A DNA stretch of 64,000 nt from NCBI GenBank assembly GCA_905234815.1, contig CAJOIX010000003.1:1-64000 (forward strand), in the 5' to 3' direction. A program made the translations under genes and the position numbers. Positions 3,817 through 55,053 of the stretch are shown here, piece after piece. Positions within the stretch are counted from its first letter, which is position 1, and each line of letters begins with the position of its first letter. The DNA is from an uncultured Prevotella sp. GTDB taxonomy: Bacteria > Bacteroidota > Bacteroidia > Bacteroidales > Bacteroidaceae. A model generated the notes under the pieces. It was given only the letters and a program-made list of their open reading frames with translations. It was not told the origin of the DNA and made no database searches.

Positions 3817-3916
3817 GCTTTTCCGTTACCAAAGGTATACACTCTTTTTTCACTCATAGTTAGGTAAAAGATATTTAAAAATTACACAAATTTGTTTCGA
3901 TTGTGTAAAATTACAA
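3817..3916. repeat. 100-bp direct repeat copy 2, upstream of the SDR gene
   Basis: Same as 2805-2904 except one mismatch; offset 1012 bp. Confidence 0.95.
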
Positions 3917-4036
3917 ATAAGTGAGCACAATGCAAAAGAAAATATTATTTTATTTTCATTGTCGAACGAGCGTAAATATATTATTCAACTTTCTGCAGGA
4001 GTCCAGAAGTTCAGGAGTTGCAGGAGTTCAGAACTA

Positions 4037-4127
4037 AGAGTTTAGAGTTGAGAGTTTAGAGTTTAGAGTCAGTTCAAAGTTCAAAGTTCAGAGTTCAAAG
4101 TTTAGAGTGAAGAGTTTAGAGTGAAGA
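4037..4127. repeat. Degenerate heptad repeat tract (AGAGTTT/AGAGTGA)n
   Basis: Repeated agagttt/agagtga/aagttca 7-mers in the intergenic region upstream of htpG. Confidence 0.85.
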
Positions 4128-4289
4128 CAATACTTATTATAATTAAAGAAGCCAAGCAAATACAAAAATACACAAGATTGTTGCCACGAGCAGCTAAAAT
4201 TTTGTTTTTGGCACACAATTTGCAGTAGTCAAGAGTGTGCATTTGGCACGAAAACACGAGACAAATCAATCAAAAAATACAAAAGAACT

Positions 4290-6347
4290 ATGCAAAAAGG
4301 TAACATTGGAGTAACCACCGAGAACATCTTTCCGGTGATTAAGAAATTTCTTTACAGCGACCATGAAATTTTCCTGCGCGAGATGGTATCGAACGCCGTT
4401 GACGCCACACAGAAGTTGAAAACACTCAGCAAGAGTGGCGACTTCAAGGGCGAGGAGGGCGATCTCTCCGTGCGCCTGACGCTCGACGAGAAGGCTGGCA
4501 CACTCACCATCAGCGACCACGGTATAGGCATGACCGCCGAAGAGATTGACAAATACATCAACCAGATTGCCTTCTCGGGTGTGACCGATTTCCTTGAGAA
4601 ATACAAGGATCAGGCCAACGCCATCATCGGCCATTTCGGACTGGGTTTCTACTCTTCGTTCATGGTGTCGAAGAAGGTGGAAATCCTGACCAAGAGCTGG
4701 CAGGAAGGCGCCAAGGCCGTGCGCTGGACGTGCGACGGTTCGCCCGAATACACCATTGAAGATGCCGAAAAGGCCGACCGCGGTACCGACATCATTCTCC
4801 ACATCGACGACGACTGCAAGGAATTTCTGGAAAAGAGCCGCATTGAATCACTGCTGCAGAAATACTGCAAGTTCCTGCCTGTGCCCGTGGTATTCGGCAA
4901 ACAGCAAGAATGGAAAGACGGAAAAATGCAGGACACCGACCGCGACAACGTGATCAACAACGTGGAGCCGCTCTGGACCAAGACACCCTCAACGCTGAAG
5001 GACGAGGACTACACATCGTTCTACCGCACGCTTTATCCCATGCAGGACGAGCCCCTGTTCTGGATTCACCTGAATGTGGACTATCCGTTCCATCTCACCG
5101 GTGTGCTCTATTTCCCCCGCATACAGTCAAACATCGACCTGCAAAAAGGTAAGATTCAACTCTACTCCAACCAGGTGTTCGTGACCGATCAGGTGGAAGG
5201 CATCGTACCCGACTTCCTGACCCTGCTCCACGGTGTGATCGACTCGCCAGACATCCCGCTCAACGTGAGCCGTTCCTACCTGCAGAGCGACCAGAACGTG
5301 AAGAAAATCTCCACCTATATCACCAAGAAAGTGGCCGACCGCTTGAACTCCATCTTCAAGGAGGACCGCGAGAACTACGAGAAAAAGTGGGACGATGTGA
5401 AAATCTTCATCCACTACGGTATGCTCTCGCAAGACGATTTCTACGACCGCGCCAAGGACTTTGCCCTGTTCAAAGACACCGAGGGAAAATACTACACGCT
5501 CGACGAGTATCGCGACGCCATCAAGGAAGCACAGACCGACAAGGACGGCACACTCGTTTACCTCTATGCCAACAACCGCGATGCAGAATATACCTATATA
5601 AATAACGCGCGCAAGAAGGGTTACAGCGTGCTCCTCTTCGACGGACAGCTCGACACGCCGCTGGCCTCCATGCTCGAACAGAAGCTGGAGAAGACACGTT
5701 TCACACGTGTTGATGCCGACACCATCGACCGCCTCATCCAGAAAGAGGAACAGCGCCAGACCAATCTCTCGGCGGAAGACACTACCCTGCTCACCACCCT
5801 CTTCGCCGAACAACTGCCCCACCTCGAGAAGACGGAATTCCACACCGAAGTGCAAGCCCTGGGCGCAGAAGCTGCTCCCGTGGTCATCACCCAGAGCGAA
5901 TATATGCGACGCATGAAAGACATGAGTCGCTACCAGAGCGGAATGGCCTTCTACGGACAGATGCCCGATATGTATCAGTTCGTGCTCAATGCCGACCACC
6001 CGCTCATTACCGCACAACTCTCCGCTGCCAACACGCAGCTCTCCGCAGAGCTGTCGCCCATCCAGAGCGAACTCAAGGGACTCAATGCCCGTCTGGCCGT
6101 ACTCCAGCAGGAGGCCGACAAGAAGAAGCCCGAGGAAGTGACAGCCGAAGAGAAAGCCGACAAGGAGCAGACGCAAAAGTCTATCGACGAGCAAAAGGCA
6201 CGCCTCAACGAGACCATCCGCAACTACGGCAAAGACAACCAGGCCGTGCACCAGCTCATCGACCTGGCGCTCCTGCAGAACGGTATGCTCCGCGGCGAAG
6301 CACTCAACAAATTCGTTGAACGCTCCATCAGCCTGATCAACAAATAA
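4290..6347 (+). CDS. htpG: Molecular chaperone HtpG (Hsp90 family)
   Basis: 685 aa; LREMVSNAVDATQKL, DHGIGMT, GHFGLGFYS GHKL ATPase motifs. Confidence 0.98.
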   Translation: MQKGNIGVTTENIFPVIKKFLYSDHEIFLREMVSNAVDATQKLKTLSKSGDFKGEEGDLSVRLTLDEKAGTLTISDHGIGMTAEEIDKYINQIAFSGVTDFLEKYKDQANAIIGHFGLGFYSSFMVSKKVEILTKSWQEGAKAVRWTCDGSPEYTIEDAEKADRGTDIILHIDDDCKEFLEKSRIESLLQKYCKFLPVPVVFGKQQEWKDGKMQDTDRDNVINNVEPLWTKTPSTLKDEDYTSFYRTLYPMQDEPLFWIHLNVDYPFHLTGVLYFPRIQSNIDLQKGKIQLYSNQVFVTDQVEGIVPDFLTLLHGVIDSPDIPLNVSRSYLQSDQNVKKISTYITKKVADRLNSIFKEDRENYEKKWDDVKIFIHYGMLSQDDFYDRAKDFALFKDTEGKYYTLDEYRDAIKEAQTDKDGTLVYLYANNRDAEYTYINNARKKGYSVLLFDGQLDTPLASMLEQKLEKTRFTRVDADTIDRLIQKEEQRQTNLSAEDTTLLTTLFAEQLPHLEKTEFHTEVQALGAEAAPVVITQSEYMRRMKDMSRYQSGMAFYGQMPDMYQFVLNADHPLITAQLSAANTQLSAELSPIQSELKGLNARLAVLQQEADKKKPEEVTAEEKADKEQTQKSIDEQKARLNETIRNYGKDNQAVHQLIDLALLQNGMLRGEALNKFVERSISLINK

Positions 6348-6469: not shown

Positions 6470-6581
6470 GAAAGCTATGCTTTTGACTTCCAATAGCTAT
6501 GCTTTTGCACGCTAAAAGCTATGCTTTTGAAGCCCGAAAGCATAGCTTTTGAAAACGGATTACTAAACCACTGATATTCAG
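6470..6581. repeat. 22-bp-period palindromic array A (4 units)
   Basis: Units at 6470, 6492, 6514, 6536: GAAAGCTATGCTTTT, AATAGCTATGCTTTT, AAAAGCTATGCTTTT, GAAAGCATAGCTTTT; 31-bp flank ending CTGATATTCAG. Confidence 0.9.
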
Positions 6582-6861: not shown

Positions 6862-7734
6862 ATGCGTCAACTAAAGATTCAAAAGAGCATTACCAATCGT
6901 TCCAGTGAAGCACTCGACAAGTATCTTGTTGAGATTGGACGAGCACCGCTTATTTCTATCGACGAAGAGATAGAACTGGCCCAGAAGATTCGCAAGGGCG
7001 GTCCGGAAGGGGAACGCGCCAAGGACAAATTGGTCACTGCCAATCTGCGCTTTGTGGTGTCTGTGGCCAAGCAATATCAGCACCAGGGCCTCACGCTGAC
7101 CGACCTGATTGACGAGGGCAACATCGGACTGATCAAAGCGGCTCAGAAATTTGACGAGACGCGCGGTTTCAAATTCATCTCCTACGCCGTGTGGTGGATT
7201 CGCCAGAGCATCCTGCAGGCCATTGCCGAGCAGAGCCGCATTGTGCGCCTGCCGCTGAATCAGGTGGGCTCGCTCAATAAAATCAACCACGAAATCAACC
7301 GCTTTGAACAAGAGAACCAGCGCCATCCTTCAGTAACGGAACTGGCCGAGGCCACCAATATCGACGAAGAGAAAATTGGCCAGAGCCTCATGGCCGATGG
7401 CCACCACGTGAGCATTGACGCTCCGTTCCAGGACGGTGAAGACAACTGTATGCTCGACGTAATGCCCAGCGGAGAAGACAGCCGTGCAGACCGCGAGGTG
7501 GACCACGAGAGCATGTCGCTCGAACTCGACACCGTGCTCGGCAAAGTGCTCAAAGAGCGCGAAATCACCATCATCAAGAAATGCTTCGGCATAGACTGCC
7601 CCGAACAGGGACTGGAGGAGATTGGCTCACATCTGGGACTGACCCGCGAGCGTGTACGACAGATTCGCGAGAAGAGCATTGCCAAGCTGCGCGACAGCGG
7701 TTACTCCAAGATTCTGATGAAATATCTCGGATAG
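6862..7734 (+). CDS. rpoD: RNA polymerase sigma factor, sigma-70 (RpoD/SigA-like)
   Basis: 290 aa; region 2 FDETRGFKFISYAVWWIRQSI, region 4 LGLTRERVRQIREKSIAKLR. Confidence 0.95.
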   Translation: MRQLKIQKSITNRSSEALDKYLVEIGRAPLISIDEEIELAQKIRKGGPEGERAKDKLVTANLRFVVSVAKQYQHQGLTLTDLIDEGNIGLIKAAQKFDETRGFKFISYAVWWIRQSILQAIAEQSRIVRLPLNQVGSLNKINHEINRFEQENQRHPSVTELAEATNIDEEKIGQSLMADGHHVSIDAPFQDGEDNCMLDVMPSGEDSRADREVDHESMSLELDTVLGKVLKEREITIIKKCFGIDCPEQGLEEIGSHLGLTRERVRQIREKSIAKLRDSGYSKILMKYLG

Positions 7735-10431: not shown

Positions 10432-13317
10432 CTATTTTTTCTTTCTTTTACTTGCAACTCGGTCGGTGGCAATAGTATCTTTGCAGCGCTGAAGTTCTTC
10501 GCGCAAGAAACGCGGAGTGTATCCTTTCTTCGATTTTGCCACTGCTTCCGGTGTGCCTTCGTTGATGATAAGGCCGCCACCGCGACCACCTTCAGGACCA
10601 AGGTCGATGATATGGTCGGCCAGCTTCACCACATCGAGGTTGTGTTCAATCACCACGACGGTGTTACCGCGTTCGACAAGTCGCTGCAATACATCCATCA
10701 GAATACGTATATCTTCAAAGTGGAGGCCGGTGGTAGGCTCGTCCAGAATGTAGATGGTTCGTCCTGTGTCGCGTTTGGAGAGCTCGGTGGCCAGCTTCAC
10801 GCGCTGACTTTCACCGCCTGAGAGCGTAGATGAGGGCTGACCTAACTTCACGTAGCCCAGACCTACCTCTTGCAGCGTTTTGATTTTCTGCAGGATATGG
10901 GGCACTGACTCGAAGAATTCAACAGCCTGATTGATGGTCATATCAAGCACATCGGCTATGGACTTTCCCTTGTAGCGCACTTCAAGGGTTTCACGATTAT
11001 AGCGTTTTCCGTGACAGACCTCGCATGGAACCATTACATCGGGCAGAAAATTCATCTCGATGGTCTTGTAGCCATTGCCACCACAAGTTTCGCACCGACC
11101 ACCTCGCACATTGAACGAAAAGCGGCCTGGCTTGTATCCGCGTATCTTTGCTTCGGGGAGTTCTACAAAAAGTGAACGTATATCGGAGAACACGCCAGTG
11201 TAGGTAGCAGGATTGGAGCGGGGCGTGCGGCCTATGGGGCTTTGATCTACATTGACTACCTTGTCAAGATTCTCCAGCCCCTCAACAGAATCGTAGGGCA
11301 GCGGTTTCTTCAATGAGCGGTAGAAGTGCTGCGAGAGAATGGGTTGGAGGGTTTCGTTGATGAGCGTTGATTTGCCTGAACCGGACACACCAGTGACCAC
11401 GGTGAGAGTGCCGAGGGGGAGACGAAAATCAACGTGCTGGAGATTGTTGCCCGACGCGCCACGAATGACGAGCGTCTGACCATTGCCTTTCCGTCTCTGG
11501 GCGGGCAGTGGGATTTGTCGGCGACCGGAAAGATAATCGGCTGTCAGCGTTGAAGGTTGGGAGTCGGGAGTGGTGAGCTGAGCGGGGGTGCCTTGGAACA
11601 CTACTTCCCCACCCTTTCGTCCAGCCCCCGGGCCGATATCAATCAGATAGTCGGCAGCGAGCATCATGTCGCGATCATGCTCGACCACAACCACTGTATT
11701 GTCCATGTCGCGCAAGGACTTGAGCGACGAGATGAGGCGCTCGTTGTCGCGCTGATGAAGACCGATGCTGGGCTCATCGAGTATATAGAGCACATTGACC
11801 AGTTGCGAGCCAATCTGCGTGGCCAAACGGATGCGTTGGGTTTCGCCACCGGAGAGTGAGGCCGTGGGACGATTGAGCGCCAAATAGTCAAGTCCGACCC
11901 GCAGGAGGAAATCTACACGCGCGGAAATCTCTTTGATAATCTCGTGCGCAATACTCTGCTGTGTCGCGTCTTGAACATCGGCAATATGGTTGCACCAGTC
12001 TTTAAGCTGGATGATATCGAGCGAGGATACATCGGCAATGTTCTTATCACCGATACGGAATGCAAGCGATTCCGGTTTGAGACGGGCTCCGTTGCAGGCT
12101 GGGCAAGTGGTGGTGGCCAAGAATTGGTCGGCCCATTTCTGTCCATGGACGGAATCGTCGCCCTCAATGATGTTCTGAAGATATTTCACCACACCGTCGA
12201 AAGACATGAAATAGTCGGACGAGGTATGGACAAGCTCTTTCTTAATCTTAACGTTTTCCAGGGCACCATAGAGCACTTCGTTCATTGCTTCGTCGGGAAT
12301 CTCGCCGATGGGTGTGGACAGCGAACAATCGTACTTCTCCAAGAGTGCTTCAATCTGCCAGAATATCATCTGGTTTTTGTATTTTCCAAGAGGTGTTATT
12401 CCACCATCGCGGATGCTAAGCGAATTGTCGGGGATGACTTTTTTCAGATCTATCTCGTTGACAAATCCCAATCCCTTGCAACGCGGGCAGGCACCTTCGG
12501 GCGAATTGAACGAAAACATATTGGGTGCCGGATCGGGATAGGCCATGCCTGTGACGGGGTCCATCAACCGGCGGGAATAGGAACGAAGTTCTTCGGTATC
12601 GGCATTGAGTATCATCAATACGCCTTCACCTTGCTGCAGAGCGGTTTTCAGACTGCGCTTCAGGCGGTCTTCGATGCCTGCCTTCACACGGAGGCGATCG
12701 ATGATTACCTCGATATTGTGGTTCTGATAGCGATCTACCTTCATGCCGCGCGTCAACTCTTTGATTTCTCCATCCACACGGATGTGGAGATACCCTTTCT
12801 TGCGCATAGACTCGAAGAGTTCGCGATAATGACCCTTGCGCTGTCTGACCAGTGGCGCGAGAATATAGATGGCTGTTCCTTGGTAGTCGTGCTCCACCAT
12901 CTGAAGAATCTTCTCCTCGGTGTATTTCACCATTTTCTCGCCTGAGAGATAACTGTAAGCATCGGCTGTGCGGGCGAAGAGGAGGCGCAGATAGTCGTAA
13001 ATCTCAGTGATGGTACCAACCGTGGAACGGGGATTTTTGTTGGTGGTCTTTTGCTCAATGCTGATGACGGGGCTGAGGCCAGTGATCTTGTCAACATCTG
13101 GACGCTCCATATTGCCCAGGAAGTTGCGCGCATAGGGTGAGAAGGTATCGATATAGCGACGCTGTCCTTCGGCATAGATGGTGTCGAAGGCCAAGGACGA
13201 TTTGCCCGAACCCGACAGTCCGGTCACGACAGTGAGCGTGCCGTGGGGTATGGACACATCGATATTCTTCAGGTTGTGAACCCGTGCTCCAAAAACTTCA
13301 AGATTAGATGATTTCAT
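10432..13317 (-). CDS. uvrA: Excinuclease ABC subunit UvrA (paralog 1, 961 aa)
   Basis: Walker [15 protein letters not shown] and [10 protein letters not shown], two LSGGE signatures, zinc-finger [10 protein letters not shown]...[10 protein letters not shown]. Confidence 0.96.
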
Positions 13318-13341
13318 AGTTCAGACGGCATCGTACAAAGG

Positions 13342-14067
13342 TTACTCAGTAACAGCTGTGGATGTATTTTCGCGGAAACCACGCAACAGATTTACATCGC
13401 GACGAATGTTGAACACGCGACCATCGGCTCCTCGGGCCTTGACTAAACAAAAATATACTCCTTCCTTAACAGGATGACCATTATGGGTTCCATCCCACCC
13501 GGTGGAAGGATCGGTCCACTCGAAGAGTAACTGCCCCCAGCGATTGTAGATATATCCATGAAACTCGACTATCGACTGGTAGCCATCCTTAGGTTTATAA
13601 AGATCATTTCGCTTATCGTCGTTGGGCGAGAAGGCATTAGGCATTTCAAGTTTACTCTCCGATGCAGAGATTGTCAGCGGAGTGGCAGTAGCCCAATACT
13701 CTTCGGTATATTCCTGCACGTCGGAACCCTGCGTAAATGTGGCGTAAAGCATCACATAATGCGTACCCGCTTCAGTGAAGGTGAAAGTGGTTTCCTCTTC
13801 ATTGTTACGCACGAGATAAGGTTCGGTTAAATCATCCTCATGATAAAAGCGCCACTCATAATGAGCGGTCCAGCCATCAGCATGCTCGACTCCACCATAG
13901 AAGTGAACTTCAATAGGTGCCGAACCAGTGAAACTGGTGCCAGACTCTTCCTTTCCCGTGGCATCGACGGCGGTGAGCGATGGACTGATGGACGGCAACG
14001 ATTGCGCAGATGCAATCATCGACATGCTGAGAGTGAAGAGCAATATGAGATAACTTTTTCTAATCAT
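13342..14067 (-). CDS. Gliding motility-associated C-terminal (CHU_C/T9SS type B-like) domain protein
   Basis: Signal peptide; PNAFSPNDDKRNDLYKP...YNRWGQLLFEW...GWDGTHNGHPVKEGVYFCLVKA. Confidence 0.88.
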   Translation of the reverse strand: MIRKSYLILLFTLSMSMIASAQSLPSISPSLTAVDATGKEESGTSFTGSAPIEVHFYGGVEHADGWTAHYEWRFYHEDDLTEPYLVRNNEEETTFTFTEAGTHYVMLYATFTQGSDVQEYTEEYWATATPLTISASESKLEMPNAFSPNDDKRNDLYKPKDGYQSIVEFHGYIYNRWGQLLFEWTDPSTGWDGTHNGHPVKEGVYFCLVKARGADGRVFNIRRDVNLLRGFRENTSTAVTE

Positions 14068-24650: not shown

Positions 24651-24743
24651 TTACCTTTTTCAAAAATTTCAACCGCAAAAATACAAAATTCGCTCCAAAA
24701 CGAAACGGCAAATCCAGACTTTTTTCGTCCATTCGCAAGTAGC

Positions 24744-24886
24744 TGATAATCAGGCGCATAGAAACCGTGCTTCAAAAGCATAGCTTTTAGGCGGCAAAAG
24801 CATAGCTTTCGGAGGGCAAAAGCATAGCTTTTAGCGGCCAAAAGGATAGCTTTTGAAAAACAGGAGTTAAACACTGTCGATAAATT
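24744..24886. repeat. 22-bp-period palindromic array B (4 units)
   Basis: AAAAGCATAGCTTTT-type units from 24775 at about 22-bp spacing; conserved flank with CTGATAATCAG at 24744. Confidence 0.88.
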
Positions 24887-37399: not shown

Positions 37400-37511
37400 A
37401 AAAGCTATGCTTTTGCCCTTCAAAAGCTATCCTTTTGCAGCCTAAAAGCTATGCTTTTGCCGTCCAAAAGCATAGCTTTTGAAAGCGGGTTTCTATCTTA
37501 TTGAAAATCAA
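37400..37511. repeat. 22-bp-period palindromic array C (4 units)
   Basis: Units at 37400, 37422, 37444, 37466; 31-bp flank ending TTGAAAATCAA. Confidence 0.9.
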
Positions 37512-39349: not shown

Positions 39350-39548
39350 CTGCCACGGGCTGAGCTACATAAATGAAAAGACCGCAGCGTGAAAAAAATC
39401 TTTCGCTGCGGTCTTTTCTTTTGTGACTCCCGCGGGATTGACTTTCGTCCATCCCTTCCCTGCCACGGGCCGAGCTACACAAAAGAAAGACCGCAGCATG
39501 AAAGAAATCTTTCGCTGCGGTCTTTTCTTTTGTGACTCCCGCGGGATT
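39350..39548. repeat. About 110-bp tandem duplication of the tRNA-Arg 3' end plus terminator
   Basis: 39350-39439 and 39460-39548 near-identical: TGCCACGGGC...GACCGCAGC hairpin...TTTGTGACTCCCGCGGGATT. Confidence 0.9.
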
Positions 39549-42578: not shown

Positions 42579-42743
42579 GTGATTTTCAAGACTGAATTCA
42601 TTCAATTTCAAAAGCTATGCTTTTAGGCGCTAAAAGCATAGCTTTTGGAAGGCAAAAGGATAGCTTTTGGAGCGCAAAAGGATAGCTTTTGGAGCGCAAA
42701 AGCATAGCTTTTGAAAACCGATTTGCAATCTGTTGAAAATCAG
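42579..42743. repeat. 22-bp-period palindromic array D (5 units)
   Basis: Units at 42610, 42632, 42654, 42676, 42698; both 31-bp flanks carry inverted TGATTTTCA / TGAAAATCA boxes. Confidence 0.9.
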
Positions 42744-53278: not shown

Positions 53279-53316
53279 AAAATTAAGAATGTAATAATTT
53301 AAAAATTAGCCATCCC

Positions 53317-53416
53317 ACTCCTCACTCTTCACTCTTCACTTCTCACTCTTCACTCTTAACTCTTCACTCTTAACTCTTCACTCTTAACTCCTCACTCTTA
53401 ACTCTTCACTCTTAAC
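53317..53416. repeat. Heptad/14-bp tandem repeat (CTCTTCA/CTCTTAA)n
   Basis: ctcttcactcttaa units ending one base before the ATG at 53418. Confidence 0.9.
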
Positions 53417-53417
53417 A

Positions 53418-54899
53418 ATGAAAAACAAACTATTCTTGCTACTCGCAGCCTGCTGCATAGCACTCAACCTCCAAGCACAAGTAGAACGACCAAAACTCGT
53501 TGTCGGACTCGTCGTCGACCAAATGCGCTGGGACTACCTCTACTTCTATAACGATGAATTCTGCGAAGGAGGCTTCAAACGCCTGCTCGCCGAAGGCTAC
53601 TCCTGCGAAAACACCATGATCAACTACGTGCCCACCGTCACAGCCATCGGACACACCAGCATCTACACCGGCACAACCCCGGCACTACACGGCATCGCAG
53701 GAAACAATTTCTACCAAGACGGCAAATCCTTCTACTGCTGCGGCGATGAAACAGTCAAACCCGTAGGCAGCAAAGGAAAAGCCGGACTCATGTCACCACG
53801 CAATATGCTCGCCACAACCATCGGCGACCAACTACGCCTCGCCACCAACTTCTCATCGCGCGTCTTCGGCGTAGCACTCAAAGACCGCGCAGCCATCCTG
53901 CCCGCAGGCCACAGCGCCAACGCAGCCTACTGGTACGACAAAGAAGCAGGACACTTCATCACCAGCACCTACTACATGAACCAACTCCCACAATGGCTCA
54001 ACCAATTCAATCAGCAAAACAAAACCACCGAAGACATCCGGGCCACTGACCAAGGCGTCACACTCACATTCAAACTCGCCGAAGCACTCATCCAAAACGA
54101 GCAACTCGGACAACAACCACAAACCGATATGCTCTGCGTCAGCATCTCATCCACCGACATGATAGGCCACGCCACAGGCACACGAGGCAAAGAAAACCGC
54201 TCCGTCTATCTCCAACTCGACCGAGACCTCGCCCACTTCCTGCAAGTCCTCGACCAACAAGTCGGACCAGGCAACTACCTCCTCTTCCTATCAGCCGACC
54301 ACGGAGCCGTGCACAACCCCAACTACCTCAAGCAGCACCACCTCCCCGGAGCAGGATTCCCCGCATGGGAGGCAGCAAAGGAACTCAACAAGACACTCGC
54401 AAAAAAATACCAAATCAAAGGAAACATCATCCTCGGAACAGGCTCAAACAGCCTATACCTCGACCACAAACTCCTCGACAAAAACAACCTGCAGCGACAA
54501 CAAGTCATCAGCGACATCCGCAACCTCCTCATGCCCGACCCACGCGTAGCCTACGTCGTTGACCGACAAAACGTAGCCACCCAATCCATACCACAACTCC
54601 TACGCGAACGAATCATCAACGGCACACACCCCAAACGCTCCGGCGACATACTCATCATCACCACACCAGGAGTAGTGCCAGGCTCCGACAAACCCGACTA
54701 CATAGGCACAAGCCACGGAGCATGGAACCCATACGACGCACACATACCACTCATCTTCTACGGATGGCACATCCAACATGGCGCCACCGCAGCCACCAAC
54801 CACATCGTCGACATCGCACCAACCATCTGTGCCATGCTGCACATACAGCAACCAAACGCCTGCATCGGACAAGCCATCACCACCGCCTTCGAACAATAA
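53418..54899 (+). CDS. PafA-like alkaline phosphatase family protein
   Basis: Signal peptide; VVGLVVDQMRWDYL, AIGHTSIYTGTTPALHGIAGNNFY, LSADHGAVHNPNYL. Confidence 0.88.
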   Translation: MKNKLFLLLAACCIALNLQAQVERPKLVVGLVVDQMRWDYLYFYNDEFCEGGFKRLLAEGYSCENTMINYVPTVTAIGHTSIYTGTTPALHGIAGNNFYQDGKSFYCCGDETVKPVGSKGKAGLMSPRNMLATTIGDQLRLATNFSSRVFGVALKDRAAILPAGHSANAAYWYDKEAGHFITSTYYMNQLPQWLNQFNQQNKTTEDIRATDQGVTLTFKLAEALIQNEQLGQQPQTDMLCVSISSTDMIGHATGTRGKENRSVYLQLDRDLAHFLQVLDQQVGPGNYLLFLSADHGAVHNPNYLKQHHLPGAGFPAWEAAKELNKTLAKKYQIKGNIILGTGSNSLYLDHKLLDKNNLQRQQVISDIRNLLMPDPRVAYVVDRQNVATQSIPQLLRERIINGTHPKRSGDILIITTPGVVPGSDKPDYIGTSHGAWNPYDAHIPLIFYGWHIQHGATAATNHIVDIAPTICAMLHIQQPNACIGQAITTAFEQ

Positions 54900-54910
54900 A
54901 CCAACCCCCA

Positions 54911-55053
54911 CTGAAAATCAACCACTTACAACCCCCGTTCCAAAAGCTATGCTTTTACCCTTCAAAAGCTATGCTTTCACCCACCAAAAGCTATGCTTTC
55001 GCAACCCGAAAGCATAGCTTTTGAAAAACGGAAGAATAACACCTGAAAAACGG
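54911..55053. repeat. 22-bp-period palindromic array E (4 units)
   Basis: Units at 54942, 54964, 54986, 55008; 31-bp flanks on both sides; CTGAAAATCAA on the left. Confidence 0.9.

Follow-up and report, generated by a model that had tools for sequence, protein, structure and literature searches.

Downstream of htpG (4290-6347, + strand) and upstream of a sigma-70 gene (6862-7734, + strand) in a 64-kb stretch of Prevotella DNA, hereafter the window, four short palindromes follow one another at a constant distance. The locus raises the question of what such an array is, how often it recurs on the chromosome, and whether it acts as DNA, as RNA, or as a mobile repeat.

Palindrome arrays in the window

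A search for AAAAGCNNNGCTTTT with at most 1 mismatch returns 21 matches in the window, where 0.20 are expected and 0 of 100 shuffled sequences reach 21. The matches make up five arrays with 22-bp steps, designated A to E (Table 1). The unit starts that an initial annotation of this DNA gave for array A, at exact 22-bp steps, are confirmed. That annotation also ascribed the core AAAAGC-TAT-GCTTTT to each unit of array A, which is correct for unit 3 (an exact AAAAGCTATGCTTTT), but the three remaining units deviate from it (GAAAGC.., AATAGC.. and GAAAGCATAGC...). The last unit had been described as flipped. Because the rest of the core is palindromic, this difference amounts essentially to one central base pair (TAT versus ATA).

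Arrays B to E had been described as built like array A, and they do share its 22-bp steps and flank motif, but array D has five units, the fifth apparently arising by local duplication of one unit together with the linker GGAGCGC. A 31-bp flank had been proposed as well; what recurs is not a general 31-bp block but the palindrome CTGAWWWTCAG, which keeps a constant offset and usually stands on one side only. Genes that flank arrays in the window have no common theme, and encode Hsp90, a sigma factor, DNA ligase, a permease and a radical SAM protein.

Table 1. Positions of the palindrome arrays and their flanking palindromes in the 64-kb window.
Feature	Position	Strand	Description
Array A	6470..6550	.	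four 15-bp palindromic units (6470-6484, 6492-6506, 6514-6528, 6536-6550); 22-bp period
Array A flank palindrome CTGATATTCAG	6571..6581	.	+20 from array edge; overlapped by an IHF-consensus-like site (11/13) from 6576
Array B	24774..24854	.	four units; gap of divergent genes: DNA ligase (-), SIS/CBS protein (+)
Array B flank palindrome CTGATAATCAG	24743..24753	.	left of array, offset as in array A; IHF-like score 12/13
Array C	37400..37480	.	four units; both neighbouring genes on the - strand
Array C flank palindrome TTGAAAATCAA	37501..37511	.	+20; IHF-like WATCAANNNNTTR 13/13 from 37506
Array D	42610..42712	.	five units; both neighbouring genes on the - strand
Array D flank palindrome TTGAAAATCAG	42733..42743	.	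+20 of array
Array E	54942..55022	.	four units; gap of convergent genes
Array E flank palindrome CTGAAAATCAA	54911..54921	.	left of array, offset as in array A

Other repeats are also present in the window. Degenerate heptamer runs (AGAGTTT / CACTCTT-type, in multiples of 7 bp) occupy intergenic DNA at 4011-4143 and 53302-53427, and these two runs (I24 and I25) are mutually reverse-complementary. A 100-nt repeat with 99% identity is found at 2805-2904 and 3817-3916; the copies are 1 kb apart, each at the start of one of two adjacent - strand ORFs. A GC-rich stem-loop, AAAGACCGCAGC..GCTGCGGTCTTT, occurs in tandem at 39377-39439 and 39486-39548; its copies are 97% identical and have a T-rich tail, and together they look like a doubled terminator-like element.

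A four-unit element across the genome

The genome to which the window belongs (G000) is an incomplete assembly from the large Prevotella group, with 1.62 Mb in 56 contigs and 82% completeness. It has no close sister in the genome collection, and its closest named relatives, judged by HtpG, are mostly rumen Prevotella MAGs. The family had been put at five loci, a figure that proves far too low. A scan for further 22-bp-phased copies found a clear excess, with 69 arrays in the 830 of 1618 kb that array counts cover, and a pattern search of the whole genome detected 131 adjacent perfect core pairs, compared with 0 in the reversed control. The chromosome carries well over a hundred near-identical four-palindrome elements.

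The organization of these elements is strict. Exactly four units are present in 62 of the 69 arrays. When distances to the next core were collected up to 120 bp with no period assumed, 199 of 206 were exactly 22 bp, and the remainder were mostly multiples. Within the unit, AAAAGCWWWGCTTTT, the AAA, the TTT and the adjoining GC are nearly invariant, and the centre is WWW. The 7-nt linkers are largely free (131 distinct sequences among 186), with R-N5-Y as the sole constraint, and the earlier proposal of conserved cores joined by variable linkers is therefore borne out. According to coding calls from a simple home-made gene caller, at most 1 of the 69 arrays lies inside a coding region, in a genome that is 84% coding. 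Arrays occur between tandem (38), convergent (15) and divergent (12) genes.

A second motif at a fixed offset

The palindrome CTGAWWWTCAG lies ~20 bp from the array edge, on the right in 38 and on the left in 2 of 62 oriented arrays in G000. Its shorter form, TGAWWWTCA, is found within 60 bp of 34 of the 69 arrays, versus 0.4% of random 60-mers. Where the flank motif is clear (35 arrays), neighbouring elements point in opposite directions in 13 cases and in the same direction in 5, which is not significant; along the window the directions are > < > < >.

TGAWWWTCA starts at +21 in G000, +20 in G010, +10 in G057 and +9 in G083, so that the offsets fall into two registers that differ by about one helical turn (G000 and G010 versus G057 and G083). 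Read outward, the motif runs on into WATCAANNNNTTR, which is similar to the IHF consensus. The 138 flanks contain 10 perfect matches to WATCAANNNNTTR and 21 that score at least 12/13, all at offset 25, and the background rate of such matches is ~8.5e-5 per position. Of 35 G083 elements, 24 have an IHF-like site adjoining the array. The locked offsets in two registers suggest that a second DNA-bound factor recognizes the flank motif, although the likeness to IHF is a resemblance in sequence only.

Even spacing along the chromosome

In the genome of the window, the median of 49 successive inter-array distances is close to 10 kb, the shortest is 5.2 kb and the coefficient of variation (CV) is 0.47, whereas random placement of an equal number of arrays in intergenic regions gives a CV of 0.82 and a minimum of 0.9 kb. 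Intervals of 7.5-12.7 kb account for 69% of those observed versus 25% under this null model, and 0 of 10,000 intergenic placements match the observation. This regularity emerged initially from 446 kb, and contigs added later repeat it, with 15 of 19 intervals falling between 8.0 and 11.4 kb. Long gaps tend to have low GC content (Spearman -0.39, p 0.006). The longest, 37.5 kb at GC 0.45 and 27.4 kb at GC 0.476, have the appearance of islands that entered an already existing ladder. The regular spacing could have arisen from exclusion resembling target immunity while the element spread.

The 10-kb ladder is seen in one genome, which is one incomplete MAG. It is absent from the relative G083, where arrays have a similar mean density and a CV of 0.88 (P 0.5 versus the intergenic null model). 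Spacing in G083 is random-like, which means that the ladder is not shared by the family as a whole.

The same period with other palindromes in related bacteria

Of 150 genomes of the genus, 86 contain AAA-N7-TTT three times at 22 bp, with as many as 503 occurrences, and the palindromes involved differ from species to species. The other 64 of the 150 have no AAA/TTT-type arrays, and the site is therefore not essential to the lineage. We also scanned other Prevotella DNA in an unbiased way, asking for 15-bp palindromes that recur with periods from 14 to 45 and setting no condition on A/T content. Period 22 was singled out, with 18 cases versus at most 3 for unrelated periods; 33 and 44 are harmonics. 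Some other species have 22-bp arrays whose palindromes lack A-tracts, such as GGTAG..CTACC in L247 and TATACAC..GTGTATA in L248. Clear arrays are found in other genera of the Bacteroidaceae too (G496, G423, G486 and G446). In the cultured species Hoylesella saccharolytica (JCM 17484; L300), an array of four units lies upstream of htpG. Among the matches listed for G119 there are two unit families, both at 22 bp, one of AAAGGTAAGCTTT-type with up to six units and one of TAAACATATCGTTTA-type with four.

In G083, four units are present in 35 of 37 arrays, and the array is part of a dispersed element with a constant length of 186 bp, bounded by TGTAAAGATAATTC and GAAAAATATTTACA. Because the whole 186-bp element is common to the G083 copies, dispersal must have happened. 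Comparison with G017, which has ~91% nucleotide identity to G083, places two elements at orthologous sites, and there the array changes less than the adjoining intergenic DNA. The third of the three comparable sites has no element in G017, and the flanking DNA at that site has been replaced. Inversion or rearrangement breakpoints between L207 (G017 C72) and G083 328-352 kb are at or beside elements, which suggests recombination between element copies at these breakpoints. Other intergenic tandem arrays with a period of ~23 bp are also present in these two genomes, and consist of CCACTCGTGG palindromes in G083 C1 (about 347.9-348.1 kb) and CGCAACGGAGTTACGGCAATCAT repeats in G017 (L222, about 13230-13420).

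The core pair is found in only three viral contigs among 2.9 million, one of which is GC-rich and looks like coding DNA, and a phage origin of the arrays was rejected on these counts. A contig filed as viral, IMGVR_UViG_2558860931_000002 (49.6 kb; L335, L337), has two four-unit arrays with a GCATAGC core, and may be phage, prophage or mis-filed host DNA.

Candidate functions

Three hypotheses had been proposed for array A: a phased protein-binding array, a bidirectional transcription barrier, and a MITE-like element. The first is the best supported of the three, given the 22-bp distance in 199 of 206 cases, the free linkers, the four units and the recurrence in other species, although protein binding itself is something that we infer. 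The two-turn phase, fixed number of units, palindromic cores and free linkers point to cooperative protein assembly on double-stranded DNA. We estimate a probability of roughly 0.45 that the arrays are sites at which four dimers of one protein dock in helical phase, with ~90 bp wrapped and a role as a boundary or anchor.

In such an arrangement, each array would be a stretch of double-stranded DNA, fixed in length, on which a nucleoprotein complex assembles, and four dimers of one sequence-specific protein would occupy its four 15-bp palindromes. The 22-bp phase, equal to two helical turns, would set the dimers on one face of the helix, allowing ~90 bp to be bent or wrapped. The helically phased TGAWWWTCA may be where a second factor, possibly IHF/HU-like, docks. 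The arrays would then serve as chromosomal boundary or anchor sites, acting as barriers to supercoil diffusion or in nucleoid organisation, and would not be operators of particular genes. We prefer a boundary role over gene-specific regulation because orientation is ignored, the arrays separate transcription units, the neighbouring genes are functionally unrelated, and the spacing is even. In Escherichia coli, palindromic BIMEs hinder the diffusion of supercoils, and the lower bound on topological domain size is about 10 kb (PMC6907758), which makes the boundary reading reasonable, but does not prove it.

Alternatively, the arrays might be mobile repeats that are MITE-like or BrickBuilt-like and have no host function, moved by a transposase acting in trans and decaying in place, with the 22-bp repeats as a minisatellite inside. 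The 186-bp dispersed unit of G083 fits this idea, since its ends are imperfectly inverted (TGTAAAGATAATTC/TGTAAATATTTTTC), and so do the coincidence of elements with inversion breakpoints and, less clearly because the flanking DNA there is replaced as well, the lack of the element at one of three comparable sites in the sister genome G017. However, 32 G083 elements have no target-site duplication (the longest flank repeat is 2.84 versus 2.84 in shuffled controls), the number of units is fixed and not variable, and cores are constant while linkers differ among copies. In G000, inverted ends common to the copies were not found, only the array and short flanks being shared, and spacing there is far from random. 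The MITE-like hypothesis is partly borne out in the relative G083; as an account of the arrays without host function we consider it unlikely, but still deserving of some weight.

BrickBuilt itself, from Porphyromonas gingivalis, has a 23-nt unit (AGAYCATARTATCCTCTCRTRTG) in direct repeats without spacers, with 1 to 22.8 copies at 19 loci (PMC4596501). The Prevotella arrays resemble it in belonging to Bacteroidales, in their intergenic location, in a tandem unit of similar length and in flanking segments, and G083 has a form with imperfect inverted ends. They differ in their 22-bp period, in unrelated palindromes that are separated by spacers, in having four copies, and in occupying over a hundred loci. 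Because sequence, organisation and copy-number behaviour all differ, the arrays do not match this catalogued repeat.

Operators for a regulator of the Lrp/AsnC (feast/famine) family would also account for the geometry, with an octamer on four phased palindromes and flanking genes regulated by nutrient state. Dimers of Lrp-type proteins bind 13-17-bp palindromes with an AT-rich centre, and form octamers on helically aligned sites with ~100 bp wrapped (PMC2995911), and BarR occupies 4-5 sites of 15 bp at regular intervals (PMC10201364). The Prevotella arrays, with their four 15-bp sites in 22-bp steps, are close to these designs and have enough sites for an octamer, and Lrp/AsnC proteins are present in all ten genomes tested. 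Nevertheless, in an alignment that comprises relatives of the G000 protein and not that protein itself, the recognition helices of both conserved paralogs are almost identical across species with different cores (CGVSRAAIHQRVQ; CNVSGAAIHQRIQ). Because constant helices are paired with changing cores, neither paralog is likely to be what reads the core of each species, and both were rejected as the specific binder. The flanking genes in the window are functionally unrelated, and even chromosomal spacing is not expected of operators. Known operator arrays (FL11, BarR, Ss-LrpB) share imperfect 13-17-bp palindromes, helical alignment and ~100 bp of wrapped DNA with the Prevotella arrays, but are single regulatory regions, whereas the latter form a chromosome-wide series whose core varies by species. 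Regulation of this kind is distinctly improbable. Our search found no binding protein, the conserved Lrp/AsnC paralogs having failed the specificity-tracking test; the reader may be a diverged Lrp/AsnC paralog or a member of another family.

An RNA-level element, in which transcribed hairpins terminate transcription both ways or protect 3' ends, is very unlikely. All five arrays of the window are predicted to fold into long hairpins, better than shuffled sequences do (z -4.2 to -9.3), and there is a mild, non-significant excess of arrays in convergent gaps (15 of 31 such gaps versus 50 of 169 others; p 0.059). Yet complementarity within arrays is below that of shuffled partners, a result that may partly reflect uncertain element orientation and is taken only as absence of positive covariation, and no compensatory change was detected. 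No terminator-like site (stem plus T-run) was found at array A, arrays also lie between divergent starts, and an RNA element has no need of strict 22-nt spacing. The RNA hairpin or terminator was therefore rejected despite its strong predicted folds, and the lack of a pairing signal argues against selection on RNA or cruciform structure. The bidirectional transcription barrier, understood as a terminator, is likewise unsupported: arrays occur in all gene orientations, the search at array A found no terminator-like site, and compensatory change was not seen.

Plain intrinsically curved DNA, with A-tracts about every 11 bp that are read through bending and without a specific protein, is if anything less probable still. 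The AAA/TTT tracts do show strong phasing, at 10.5-11.5 bp (0.10-0.125 versus 0.024 in shuffled sequences), and in this respect the arrays are like the A-tract clusters and ~11-bp periodicity of bacterial genomes, which likewise have A-tracts phased near 11 bp. However, bases between the tracts are conserved as much as the tracts in G000, and the palindrome arrays of L247 and L248 keep the 22-bp period without A-tracts. Unlike A-tract clusters, the Prevotella arrays are made of discrete, palindromic, sequence-specific units in fixed number, and A-tract curvature was rejected as the defining feature because A-tracts are not universal in 22-bp arrays.

That the arrays form a REP/BIME system kept by a RAYT (Y1 HUH) transposase is scarcely credible: they are extragenic palindromes with >100 copies and species-specific sequence, as in the definition of REPs as extragenic, many-copy, species-specific palindromes that appears in PMC2817692, but Y1_Tnp (PF01797) is absent from the array-rich G000, G083, G017, G057, G119, G012 and G077 and does occur in genomes poor in arrays, which largely refutes the idea, and the G000 core AAAAGCWWWGCTTTT has no GTAG/CGTC foot, a tag that REPs bear on a palindrome of 20-40 nt. 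Resemblances to E. coli BIMEs of the RIB type extend to short intergenic palindromes in hundreds per genome, neutrality to orientation and, beside the Prevotella arrays, an IHF-consensus-like motif. RIBs are BIMEs that bind IHF. The sequences are unrelated, however, and the Prevotella arrays are distinguished by a 15-bp palindromic unit, an exact 22-bp phase, four units, no Y1/RAYT gene and, in G000, near-even 10-kb spacing.

Implications of the proposed docking sites

A literature search found no description of the core sequence or of such arrays. New here are the over-regular spacing of arrays in G000 and the position-locked second motif TGAWWWTCA. More tentatively, the arrays may possibly represent a new class of site, namely a ~10-kb ladder of phased sites for four dimers, whose recognition sequence diverges while the 22-bp geometry is kept across Bacteroidaceae.

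As sequences that may define bacterial supercoiling domains and chromosome loops, the Prevotella arrays are discrete, mappable candidate sites that are evenly placed in one genome. If they are docking sites for phased dimers, the stoichiometry of the protein on each array can be predicted from this geometry. They also pose an evolutionary puzzle, in that related species keep the geometry but have entirely different recognition sequences.
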